From NCBI RefSeq assembly GCF_013410375.1, contig NZ_JACCFL010000001.1:3720001-3784000 (forward strand): a stretch of 64,000 bases of DNA. The letters are read 5' to 3'. The notes under the pieces were generated by a model that saw nothing but the letters and a program-made list of their open reading frames with translations, had not been told where the DNA came from and made no database searches. The position numbers were made by a program, and so were the translations under genes. Source of the stretch: Leifsonia shinshuensis (GTDB lineage: Bacteria > Actinomycetota > Actinomycetes > Actinomycetales > Microbacteriaceae). This document shows positions 2,892-36,316 of the stretch, one piece after another (positions within the stretch are counted from its first letter, which is position 1; each line of letters opens with the position of its first letter).

Positions 2892-4073
2892 ATGACCGAC
2901 AGTGCCCGGGCGTCCGGCATCGTCGCCGCAGACGCCTCGGAGCTCCTGGCGATCCTGCGCGACGGCGTTCCGCGTACCCGGGCGCAGCTCGCGGAGCTGA
3001 CCGGTCTCGCGCGCTCGACGATCGCGGTGCGCATCGACACGCTCACCGAGACCGGGCTCGTGGCGCCGGCCGGCGACGACGTGTCGACCGGAGGCCGCCC
3101 TCCCGCGCGGATCCGGTTCAACCCCGACTCGCGCGTGGTCCTGGCGATCGACCTCGGCGCGACCCACGGCGTCGTCGCGTTGGCCGACCTCGCCGGTACG
3201 ATCACGACCAGCGAGTCCCGCCGCCTGCGGATCTCCGACGGCCCGGAGGCGATCCTCGACTGGGCGCTCGAGACCGCCGAGCGCCTGTATGCCGCGACCG
3301 GGCGCCCGCTCGGCGACCTGGTCGGCGTCGGCATCGGCGTGCCGGGGCCGGTCGAGCACTCGACGGGCCTCCCGGTGAACCCGCCGATCATGCCGGGCTG
3401 GGACCGCTTCGACATCCCGACGTACGTGCGGCGCGTGTTCGACGTGCCCGTCCTCGTCGACAACGACGTGAACCTCCTCGCCCTCGGCGAGCACGCCCTC
3501 GCCTGGCCCGACCAGTCGGAGCTGCTGTTCGTCAAGGTCGCGACCGGCATCGGCGCCGGCATCATCAGCGGCGGCCGGCTGCAGCGCGGGGCGCAGGGCT
3601 CCGCGGGCGACCTCGGCCACGTGCGCGTGCCGTTCACCAGCGAGACCCCGAGCCACGGCGCCAGCGACGCCGATCTGGAGGCCCTGGCCAGCGGACCGGC
3701 GATCGCCCGCGCCCTCACCGCCGCGGGCATCCCCGCGGCCTCCAGCGACGACGTGGTCGCGCTCGCCCGCACCGGCAACGCCGAGGTGCTGCAGGCCATC
3801 CGCCAGGCGGGCCGCGATCTCGGGGAGGTCGTCGCGACCTGCGTCAACCTGCTGAACCCGTCGCTCGTCGTCGTCGGCGGCAGCCTGTCCCAGGTCGGCG
3901 AGCAGCTCCTCGCCGGGGTGCGGGAGGTCGTCTACCAGCGCTCCACCCCGCTCGCCACGCAGCATCTCACCATCACCCAGTCCCGCTCCCCGGAGACCGG
4001 CGGCGCCATCGGCGCGGCCATCATGGTCATCCAGGACACCCTGGGCGTCGCCTCCCGTCCCCTCCCCCGCTGA
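2892..4073 (+). CDS. ROK family transcriptional regulator
   Basis: A 393-residue protein with an N-terminal winged helix-turn-helix (about residues 15-65, core [16 protein letters not shown]) joined to a ROK sugar-kinase-like domain. The phosphate-binding loop IDLGATHG and the DNDVN segment are present. The canonical ROK zinc motif CxCGxxGCxE is absent, so metal-dependent sugar sensing of the NagC type is probably altered or lost. It is divergent from the isomerase/dehydrogenase operon and precedes a dehydrogenase/ThuA pair by 120 bases, so it likely represses both in response to a sugar or its derivative. Start is ATG. Confidence 0.9.
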
Positions 4074-34160: not shown

Positions 34161-34603
34161 TCGTCTCCTCGCACGACCAGGGTGGACACGGTGGTGACGA
34201 CGTGCTCGCCGGCGGCGTCCACGATCACCGTCTCGGCGGTGACCATGCTGTGCGCGCCGAGCGACTTGACCGCCGTGACGGTCAGCGTCGCCGTCAGCTC
34301 GTCGCCCGCGACGACGGGGCGCGAGAACGTGAACCGCTGGTCGCCGTGGACGACGCGGCTGAAGTCGATGCCCGCCTCCGGGTCGGCGAGGAGCTGATCG
34401 AGCGTGCGCTGCTGCACCACGACCGGGAAGGTGGGCGGCGCGACAAGGTCGGCGTGCCCGGCGGCCTGCGCAGCGGCCACGTCGAAGCTGAGGGGATCCG
34501 TCGCGAGCACGGCGGCGGCGAACTCGCGCACCTTCTCACGGCCGACGAGATACGGAGGGGTGGGCGGGAAACTGCGGCCCACGAGCTCGGGATTCACTGG
34601 CAC
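34157..34603 (-). CDS. MaoC-like dehydratase subunit, HadA type
   Basis: A 148-residue hot-dog-fold protein of the FAS1-like dehydratase N-terminal family. It begins MPVNPELVGRSFPPTPPYLVG and contains VVHGDQRFTFSRPVVAGDEL, as in HadA/HadC. The Asp/His catalytic pair is missing, so it is likely the substrate-binding partner of HadB. Start is ATG. About 75 bases upstream lies a strong terminator hairpin ending the 27-codon gene, so hadA either has its own promoter there or depends on readthrough. Confidence 0.9.
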   Translation of the reverse strand: MPVNPELVGRSFPPTPPYLVGREKVREFAAAVLATDPLSFDVAAAQAAGHADLVAPPTFPVVVQQRTLDQLLADPEAGIDFSRVVHGDQRFTFSRPVVAGDELTATLTVTAVKSLGAHSMVTAETVIVDAAGEHVVTTVSTLVVRGDE

Positions 34604-34678
34604 CCATCGATTCTACGCAGCCGGCTCCCGACCCCTCCGCGAAACCCCCTCCCCATCAAACGTGAACCCGGGAACAGA

Positions 34679-34709
34679 AGAACCCCGGCGCACCGGGCGC
34701 CGGGGTTCT
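34679..34709 (-). terminator. Intrinsic terminator-type hairpin after the 27-codon gene
   Basis: A perfect 13-base stem (34679-34691 with 34697-34709) closes on a 5-base loop. It starts 20 bases after the small gene's stop. On the minus strand the stem is followed by TTCTGTTCC, a weak T-rich tail. This is the cleanest hairpin in the window. Confidence 0.85.
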
Positions 34710-34728
34710 CGAAGCTGTCGTCAGCGGG

Positions 34729-34812
34729 TCACTGGCAGCTGTCGCACTGCAGCAGGTCCATCGGGTCGACCGGAACCGCATAGCCGCCGACGGTGTCGTT
34801 CTCGTAGTCCAT
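34729..34812 (-). CDS. 27-residue peptide gene with C-terminal CDSCQ motif
   Basis: ATG at 34812 encodes MDYENDTVGGYAVPVDPMD followed by LLQCDSCQ and a TGA stop. GGGGAGG at 34818-34824 is an excellent ribosome-binding site, five bases upstream. A near-consensus promoter lies about 50 bases upstream and a perfect hairpin follows, so the unit looks complete by itself. The peptide is acidic, lacks a hydrophobic signal sequence and ends in two cysteines separated by Asp-Ser. It could be a precursor of a modified peptide, a metal or redox peptide, a signal, or a leader peptide controlling hadA-hadB-murB. I do not recognise a named family. Confidence 0.72.
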   Translation of the reverse strand: MDYENDTVGGYAVPVDPMDLLQCDSCQ

Positions 34813-34862
34813 GATGGCCTCCCCTGAAGTCTTGTCATCCGCGCGTCTCGCGGTGTTTACCC

Positions 34863-34892
34863 ACTATATAACCCGAATGACACGATTGTCAT
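34863..34892 (-). promoter_or_regulatory. Promoter of the 27-codon gene
   Basis: On the minus strand ATGACA (34892-34887) and TATAGT (34868-34863) are spaced by 18 bases, each one mismatch from consensus. The surrounding sequence is clearly more AT-rich than the genome average. Initiation would be near 34856, giving a leader of about 45 bases. Confidence 0.7.
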
Positions 34893-34893
34893 T
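34876..34893. promoter_or_regulatory. Operator-like palindrome over the small-gene promoter
   Basis: AATGACA-CGAT-TGTCATT has perfect 7-base arms and covers the -35 element and part of the spacer of the small-gene promoter. A bound repressor would block it. The divergent ROK regulator is a candidate binder by position only. Confidence 0.6.
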
Positions 34894-34924
34894 CCACTAG
34901 ATGTAGTGTTTTGGGGATTTTTTC

Positions 34925-35008
34925 GGGACGTCGTCCCACACCCGCGACAATACGCGGAACCACCGACATTCCCCCCTCCGAACTGGGTACAGCGACACGG
35001 CGTGTCGC
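34925..35008. promoter_or_regulatory. Two further palindromes upstream of the ROK regulator
   Basis: GGGACG-T-CGTCCC (34925-34937) and GCGACAC-GGC-GTGTCGC (34992-35008) are perfect inverted repeats in the long divergent intergenic region. Their sequences differ from each other and from the palindrome at 34876, so they may serve different regulators or autoregulation of the ROK gene. Confidence 0.45.
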
Positions 35009-35095
35009 CCTCCGGTGAACTCGCAACGGGGCGTGCGCCACTTTCGTCGCACACGGATAGTAAAGTTCTAGCGATCAGGACCAGGGGTGGACGAC

Positions 35096-36316
35096 ATGGC
35101 ACGACGCGCAAGCGGAGCGGCGACGACGAGCACGCTCGCCCGCGTGAACCAGACCGCGATCATCGAGGCCCTCCGCGCCTCCGGTCCGCTCTCGCGGCAG
35201 CAGCTCGGAGCGATGACCGGCCTCAGCCCGGCCACGATCAACCGGCTCACCGCAGCGCTCGTCGAGGACGGGCTGGTCGTCACGGCGGGCCAGGAGCCTT
35301 CGCGCGGCGGGCGGCCCTCCGTGCTCCTCCGCTACGCGGGCAGCTCGCGCCTGGTCGCGGCGATCCAGCTGCGCTCCGACGTGGCGACGGGCATCCTCGT
35401 CGACTTCGACGGCACCATCGTCTTCCGGCGGAGCGTCGAGCTCGGGCCGCGTGCGTCCAAGGACTCTCCCGAGCAGCAGCGCAGGGACGACCAGCAGGCC
35501 CAGCTGGAGCGCGTGTTCGCGCTCTTCGACGAGCTGATCGCCAGAGCCGACGCGCTCGGCACGCCGTGCCTGGCCGCGGGGATCGCCGTCCCGGGGGTCG
35601 TCCAGCAGCCCGACGGCATCGTCGGCACGATGCCGGAGTTCGGCTGGACGGGGGTGCCGTTCGGCACCCTGCTCCGGCAGCGGACGGACCTCCCGATCGT
35701 GGTCGAGAACGACGCGAACGCCCTCGCGTTCGGCGAGCTGCGGGCGGGCGCGGGCAAAGGGCTCTCCGGGCTGGTCGCGATCTTCCTCGAGAACGGGCTC
35801 GGCGCCGGCGTCATCACAAACGGCGAGCTGTACCGCGGCGCGCGTGCCGAGGCCGGCGAGATCGGCTACCTGCTGATGGAACGGTCATCCCTGGAGCGCT
35901 CGTACGACGAGCACGGCGACCTCGAGGACCGGATCGGGTCGCTCGCGCTCACCCGCCGCGCCCGCGAGCTGGGCGTCGCACTCCCCGCGTCGGGCACCCT
36001 CGCCGCGCAGGACGTCTTCGAGCTCGCGCGCACCGGCGACCGCGACGCGCGGGAGATGGCGGACGAGATCCTCGACATGGTGGCCATCGCCGTCGCCGCG
36101 CTCGTCATCGTCCTCGACCCGGAGCTCGTCGTCTTCGGCAGCAGCTTCGCCGGTGAGCACGCGAATGTGATCCCGGAGATCGAGCAACGCCTCCGCGGCC
36201 GGATCATCCGGGTTCCGCGCGTCACCCCCGCCACCCACGGCGAGGACGGCGTGCTGCTCGGCATCGCCGAGCTGGCGGCGGCCGAAGTGAACGGCTTCGC
36301 GTACATCGACTTCTGA
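35096..36316 (+). CDS. ROK family transcriptional regulator
   Basis: A 406-residue repressor: N-terminal winged helix-turn-helix (about 15-75, LSRQQLGAMTGLSPATINRLT) plus ROK domain. ENDAN and FLENGLGAGVI mark the kinase-like fold. The zinc motif CxCGxxGCxE is absent; the same position reads GEIGYLLMERSSLERSYDEHG. I prefer ATG 35096, eight bases after AGGGG, over GTG 35087. A promoter for the sugar-uptake operon starts 8 bases after its stop, so it likely controls that operon through a sugar or sugar phosphate ligand. Confidence 0.92.
   Translation: MARRASGAATTSTLARVNQTAIIEALRASGPLSRQQLGAMTGLSPATINRLTAALVEDGLVVTAGQEPSRGGRPSVLLRYAGSSRLVAAIQLRSDVATGILVDFDGTIVFRRSVELGPRASKDSPEQQRRDDQQAQLERVFALFDELIARADALGTPCLAAGIAVPGVVQQPDGIVGTMPEFGWTGVPFGTLLRQRTDLPIVVENDANALAFGELRAGAGKGLSGLVAIFLENGLGAGVITNGELYRGARAEAGEIGYLLMERSSLERSYDEHGDLEDRIGSLALTRRARELGVALPASGTLAAQDVFELARTGDRDAREMADEILDMVAIAVAALVIVLDPELVVFGSSFAGEHANVIPEIEQRLRGRIIRVPRVTPATHGEDGVLLGIAELAAAEVNGFAYIDF

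Follow-up and report, generated by a model that had tools for sequence, protein, structure and literature searches.

We propose that a 27-codon gene on the minus strand of the window (the whole 64-kb stretch of DNA that was analysed) encodes a free-standing form of the C-terminal CxxC redox tail of NrdA, the large subunit of class I RNR. RNR (ribonucleotide reductase) supplies the building blocks of DNA; it is essential and intensely studied, and its class I tail is regarded as a swinging arm attached covalently to the enzyme. The identification of the window peptide with this tail is strongly supported by sequence comparison. The fuller reading, to which we assign a probability of about 0.85, is that the tail was split from NrdA in this branch of the Microbacteriaceae, would act in trans, would be tied to NrdR and would have been borrowed by mobile elements. 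It draws on the match to the fused tails of relatives, the co-occurrence with a tail-less NrdA, the conservation of the gene, and the NrdR-like box pairs that it shares with nrdA.

The 27-codon gene and its predicted control

The unit occupies positions 34909-34679 of the minus strand and comprises two NrdR-like boxes, a dyad, a promoter-like pair, a ribosome-binding site (RBS), the 27-codon frame and a hairpin:

34894..34909, minus strand: NrdR-like box 1, ACACTACATCTAGTGG; the sole 16/16 score in a scan of the window
34875..34894, minus strand: dyad GAATGACA-ATCG-TGTCATTC, between the NrdR-like boxes and overlapping the -35-like element
34863..34892, minus strand: promoter-like pair ATGACA-18 nt-TATAGT; 10 of 12 consensus matches
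34861..34876, minus strand: NrdR-like box 2, TCGGGTTATATAGTGG, overlapping the -10-like element
34818..34824, minus strand: ribosome-binding site GGGGAGG; GGGGAG core in 30 of 30 loci
34729..34812, minus strand: 27-codon gene MDYENDTVGGYAVPVDPMDLLQCDSCQ, putative free-standing RNR C-terminal tail; matches the fused NrdA tail of relatives
34679..34709, minus strand: terminator-like hairpin with a perfect 13-bp stem and a 5-base loop; compensatory changes among loci

Re-examination confirmed the promoter, palindrome, RBS, 27-codon frame and hairpin that the preliminary description had placed on the minus strand. The unit that it delimited at 34679..34893 is real, but its upstream edge was set too short, as the NrdR-like boxes reach 34909; likewise, its AT-rich island holds upstream of the frame (49-51% G+C) but not for the frame itself (63-67% G+C). 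The -35-like ATGACA starts at 34892 and the -10-like TATAGT ends at 34863, with an 18-bp spacer between them; there are two promoter-like sites in 34500-35200, the other one being weaker, against 0.2 +/- 0.5 in shuffled sequences. The frame runs from an ATG at 34812 to a TGA at 34731-34729, its peptide ends in CDSCQ, and only a weak T-rich run lies behind the stem of the hairpin. The neighbours downstream, earlier named hadA-hadB-murB, had been named correctly in kind, being two MaoC-like dehydratases and MurB; a ROK protein is encoded on the other strand, and a BadF-type kinase-like ATPase is also among the neighbours with Pfam matches. A search of the window with Rfam at gathering thresholds returned nothing but a tRNA, and no model of the Pfam and NCBIfam libraries scored above its cut-off with the 27-residue peptide.

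In a DNA search of 60 relatives, the unit was present in all 27 genomes of the same genus, and a long match was found in two of the nine other family genomes (G035 and G036), while G033 matched over 36 bases. The ATG, the RBS and the frame are intact in 30 of 30 loci, as is the CxxC pair near the C-terminus. Conservation of the frame over its flanks, proposed in the preliminary description as a check, was borne out in these loci: the frame is 93% identical at the nucleotide level, against 81% for the promoter stretch and 62% for the 30 nt that follow the stop, and the pooled pairwise pS of 0.218 and pN of 0.035 give a dN/dS of 0.14 for the 27 codons. Judged from these substitutions, the gene, which is unlinked to nrdA, is under purifying selection. 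The hairpin shows compensatory changes at 8 of 14 consensus pairs (16 aligned loci chosen from the 30). In a wider set of 49 unlinked genes (a subset of those listed, from which mobile-type copies and a duplicate in G018, L188, were left out), both cysteines are present in every copy; the collecting script required the motif, but 29 of these loci were found by DNA similarity instead. The script used to find tails elsewhere requires an ending of the form D-x-[MLIVF]...CxxCQ.

The two NrdR-like boxes of the window gene lie 33 bp apart from start to start, with a 17-bp spacer, and the left half of box 2 is degenerate, with a G in place of the conserved C. Scored with a consensus that was tuned on sequences of this set, a pair of boxes 32-33 bp apart lies upstream of all 49 unlinked tail genes examined and of 79 of the 80 nrdA genes, and the same score was reached in none of 80 control stretches inside nrdA and in 0.16% of shuffled upstream sequences. 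The window genome's own nrdA also has such a pair, and NrdR itself is encoded in that genome (G000:C1:2060558-2060989; 151.6 bits against a cut-off of 124.65). The spacers found here are of 16-17 bp; according to PMC12051234, the NrdR of S. coelicolor binds best at spacers of 15-17 bp, and published NrdR sites mostly have 15-16 bp. Thus, as in NrdR-regulated RNR promoters, two 16-bp boxes about three helix turns apart overlap the promoter, whereas the target is here the tail peptide alone, the spacer is of 17 bp, and an extra dyad lies between the boxes. The best reading of this arrangement is that the unlinked tail gene is co-regulated with RNR as a predicted member of the NrdR regulon.

As to the dyad, its arms are mostly kept and its centre is variable in the loci of the genus, and it is degenerate in L030. 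A first idea that it could be the operator of a metal- or redox-responsive regulator was dropped because the NrdR-like pair explains the promoter better.

Tails behind nrdA, apart from it and fused to it

The sole PF02867 match of the window genome is a class I NrdA with an ATP-cone, adjoining nrdB. This protein ends in ...GFGGLTSNAAGGDK and has no tail; the TAA of its gene overlaps the ATG of a 25-codon tail frame, MNSTKIEEYYVPVDPMDDLQCESCQ, and nrdB comes next. The DNA search with the window unit had also matched its coding part elsewhere in the same genomes, including the end of nrdA. Eighty named NrdA loci were drawn from 442 relatives (Leifsonia, Clavibacter, Glaciihabitans, Naasia, Microcella, Salinibacterium, Homoserinibacter and others), and in 77 of them a linked tail frame directly follows the 3' end of nrdA, its start codon overlapping the nrdA stop in 63. 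The loci without a linked tail are L115, L154 and L160, the last of which is cut by the contig end. Three frame relations to NrdA occur among the 77 linked tails (66, 7 and 4 loci), the 7 lying in the same frame behind the stop and the 4 in the third frame, so that no single frameshift would fuse all of them.

With the frame anchored on TTYYLH, no cysteine follows this motif in any of the 80 named NrdA sequences, and the detached enzymes end after a GFG-type motif without a cysteine. In an alignment with P. aeruginosa NrdA 5im3, the cysteines of their active site fall on those of that enzyme. Most unlinked tails read GY[AS]V..LLQCDSCQ and most linked ones EY.V..[DE]LQC[DE]SCQ; because of this difference in sequence, the roles, partners or timing of the two kinds of copy may differ.

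A motif [RK][RK]GF[GA] was seen near the C-terminus of all 79 named detached NrdA sequences that were parsed, out of 80 (in L031 at about 3560-3619). This GFG-type motif is a possible docking place for the tail.

In relatives from other families, whose NrdA shows 70-75% identity, the tail is fused to the enzyme and ends in the same motif in 16 of 16 cases (for example ...ARRGFGGLQPHVDVIDGEECPVDPMERLQCESCQ in L380). Such fused actinobacterial tails (e.g. ...DGEECPVDPMERLQCESCQ) and the detached ones are alike over the last 18 or so residues, including a C-terminal DPM[DE]xLQC[DE]SCQ; they differ in that the Microbacteriaceae tail is a separate gene, and that the window copy is, in addition, unlinked from nrdA. 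Fifteen of the 198 genomes in a sample of the order match the tail pattern: the window genome does so three times, and the 14 outside the family have one match each, at the 3' end of nrdA. More distant actinobacterial NrdA sequences with readable ends carry shorter fused tails such as ACSLENPESCEACQ. The survey of NrdA ends left out L182-L184, L335, L337-L342, L345, L346 and L350; the motif filter gave no match in L182-L184, which do not enter the counts. In a tree built from 94 NrdA barrels, all 80 detached enzymes fall into a single group, requiring one change, with an SH-aLRT of 92 on the one-origin branch, below the mark of 95. L144, which falls inside the detached group, comes from a record labelled Cellulomonadaceae.

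The 199 genomes of the family divide into 91 with this NrdA, 102 whose only matches are of the NrdE type (about 30% identity) and 6 without either. All 91 NrdA-type genomes show the tail pattern, as do 1 of the 102 NrdE-only genomes and 2 of the 6 of neither type (Fisher P = 1.7e-55 for NrdA-type against NrdE-only, in a test that ignores relatedness), while a reversed pattern used as a control was found in none of the genomes. The RNR-hit-free genomes G162 and G220 nevertheless carry tails. The NrdE proteins have a CVSC tail of their own in 8 of 8 ends examined.

The sole NrdE-type genome with a tail-like match is G189, with one mismatch (L073, G189:C18 26839-26877, minus strand). There is a stop just before this copy and no start was found for it; it is perhaps a decayed mobile copy.

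Three NrdA-type genomes, G065, G415 and G414, have no linked tail. In G065 (0.93 Mb) and G415, the single tail match, with three mismatches allowed, is the unlinked gene with its NrdR-like boxes, G415 being a metagenome-assembled genome of unstated completeness in which a second tail could be missing. G414 has the unlinked tail and a weak second match without a clear tail frame. If NrdA requires any tail in G065 and G415, where only the unlinked one was found, that tail has to work in trans.

Tail genes on phages, plasmids and viral contigs

The tail pattern was found in at least 120 stretches of IMG/VR contigs, of which 80 loci were retained and all examined. Each of the 80 contains a frame that has a start codon and closes with the tail; as this set was found by the tail pattern, conservation of the motif in it is by construction, and since 20 of the 80 frames are open for more than 60 codons, a longer product is possible for those. 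Either nrdA or nrdB lies within the examined stretch in only 2 of the 80 loci. A tblastn search with the peptide, weak matches with E up to 3 included, gave six phage records corresponding to four phages, namely Clavibacter phages CMP1 and CN1A, Pontimonas phage phiPsal1, and Pan2; plasmid matches came from 19 records (15 Clavibacter, 3 Leifsonia and 1 Gryllotalpicola). Tail frames were examined in all four phages and in 4 of the 19 plasmids. Two Clavibacter plasmids have the tail flanked by an ArdC-like gene on one side and an SSB gene on the other.

The RNR large-subunit barrel family was undetected in 49 of 50 tail-bearing records, G598 being the exception, in a search that took in the eight named phage and plasmid records and 42 of the 80 viral contigs, which may be fragments. 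None of the eight named records contained the barrel. PMC3653736 describes phages that carry parts of RNR, among them genes interrupted by introns or inteins, and to this extent the present cases are alike; the difference from the phage-borne RNR genes of that source is that the tail alone is carried here, the large subunit being detected in 1 of 50 records.

One plasmid tail, of 33 residues (L326 4962-5063; NZ_CP065038.1 49231-49332), is named 'ribonucleotide-diphosphate reductase subunit beta' (WP_223361114.1). In phage records, others are unannotated or overlaid by another annotated frame. In phage Pan2 the tail frame is MDDFDTIDGFACPNDPADLVSCESCQ (L331 4993-5076), and the record annotates another frame over it; Pan2 is recorded as a Pseudanabaena phage, and its stated host, a cyanobacterium, differs from those of the other phages (Clavibacter and Pontimonas).

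Some further arrangements were observed. The contig G026:C9 carries two different tail genes about 26 kb apart (L045 and L046) on what is apparently one type of mobile element, and similar pairs are present in G001:C9, G010:C18, G016:C12 and G020:C3. L276, an IMGVR contig of 95416 bases, has a tail gene and, downstream of it, an nrdA match split into two pieces with about 0.9 kb between them, followed by nrdB. The window genome itself has a third tail copy, MAGSERTDEDRSVRV...GYIVPVDPMDDLHCEGCQ (L044, G000:C1:62824-62868, minus strand), with similar ones in L053, L076 and L194; by eye, its start seems to overlap the end of a helix-turn-helix, excisionase-like frame, as in an integrative element.

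Alternative explanations and a possible mechanism

The possession of its own NrdR-like operator and terminator, and a sequence different from that of most linked copies, would also suit an unlinked copy that is a regulator or decoy, one that tunes RNR by competing with the linked tail for thioredoxin or for the active-site cleft of NrdA. We consider this unlikely, as the unlinked gene is the only tail found in G065 and G415, and both cysteines are retained in 49 of 49 unlinked copies (by a script that requires the motif, although 29 loci came from DNA similarity). It is very improbable that the linked tail is joined to NrdA by a programmed frameshift or stop read-through, with the unlinked copies as spare fragments: the fact that stop and start overlap and that 66 of the 77 linked tails share one relative frame might suggest it, yet translational coupling accounts for both the overlap and the frame, 7 of the 77 lie in the NrdA frame behind the stop and 4 in the third frame, L115, L154 and G065 are without a linked tail, and the unlinked gene, besides having an RBS of its own, evolves under purifying selection.

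The preliminary description had put forward several functions for the peptide. As a leader-peptide attenuator, it would control hadA-hadB-murB through stalling at the two Cys codons, which do lie in frame ahead of the terminator, and hadA is at most 400 nt downstream in 43 of 49 unlinked loci. It lies directly downstream in 30 of 30 loci of the first set; among the 19 other unlinked orthologues, 13 have it within 400 nt and 4 at a distance of 0.96-1.14 kb, in one it is not downstream, and in one short stretch it was not found. Linkage to hadA is, then, common but not universal, and there is one conserved terminator hairpin. Attenuation fits poorly because the same peptide family also follows nrdA, and because hadA or hadB was found in none of 106 mobile or viral loci examined; moreover, the whole peptide sequence is conserved beyond the Cys codons, and a TAGAAT element just 5' of hadA suggests that hadA has its own predicted promoter. 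We therefore give this function very little credence, while the frequent linkage means that there may be some read-through or a secondary effect on hadA. The suggestion of a precursor of a modified, exported or signalling peptide, which a small acidic CxxC peptide above the cut-off of no Pfam or NCBIfam model could well have been, is displaced by the match to the NrdA tail and appears scarcely tenable, given also the NrdR-like boxes, the co-occurrence with a tail-less NrdA, and Pfam-matched neighbours confined to the MaoC-like dehydratases, MurB, the ROK protein and the BadF-type ATPase. That it is a thiol peptide, as had also been suggested, agrees with the match of its CxxC pair to the NrdA redox tail.

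Under the free-standing tail reading, the tail would have been split from NrdA into a gene that usually overlaps the nrdA stop and an unlinked gene with its own promoter, operators, RBS and terminator. The peptide would bind NrdA in trans, possibly weakly, given that it may do so with only 25-27 residues, and its CxxC pair would re-reduce the active-site disulfide that forms at each turnover, to be re-reduced in turn by a thioredoxin-type protein. NrdR would tie the amount of tail to RNR demand, and phages and plasmids would use tail genes of their own to boost or take over the RNR activity of the host during replication.

The tail of yeast Rnr1 has reportedly been found to act in trans. In class I and II RNRs, as stated in PMC3483043, electrons pass through a CxxC pair on a flexible C-terminal tail; in a class II RNR the C-terminus of one subunit can serve another (PMC5704485); and the split class II RNR of P. 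aeruginosa has its redox domain on a protein of its own, NrdJb, which is required in vivo (PMC4520616). Such precedents make a separate tail chemically plausible. The NrdJa-NrdJb pair resembles the present case in having a redox-active C-terminal part as a separate polypeptide that mediates dithiol exchange, and by analogy the detached tail may work like NrdJb. NrdJab, however, belongs to class II, and its NrdJb has 229 residues and is encoded in the same operon (PMC4520616), whereas the tails found here have 25-27 residues, go with a class I enzyme, and include extra unlinked and mobile copies. Membership in the NrdJab class was considered and set aside, since the enzyme is a class I NrdA with an ATP-cone, next to nrdB.

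A split RNR is already known in class II (PMC4520616), and in the literature searched (CC-licensed only) no paper on a detached class I RNR tail was found. What appears to be new is a class I RNR with a detached tail of 25 residues, an unlinked copy with NrdR-like boxes, and mobile elements that carry the tail only. We find it rather probable, with less confidence than the main reading, that a three-part class I RNR operates across this branch of the Microbacteriaceae, with an exchangeable and diffusible tail that the unlinked gene doses through NrdR, and with RNR-less phages, plasmids and integrative elements supplying tails that drive or reprogram the host enzyme.

The finding also carries a warning that tail-less RNR genes need not be truncated. 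With a separate arm of 25 residues, a simple titration would be enough to measure electron transfer in trans. If the proposal is true, the dose of the tail would add an extra layer to dNTP control, and tiny genes of phages and plasmids would form a class that targets the synthesis of DNA precursors in the host, including a viral auxiliary gene that, at 20-30 codons, escapes gene callers.
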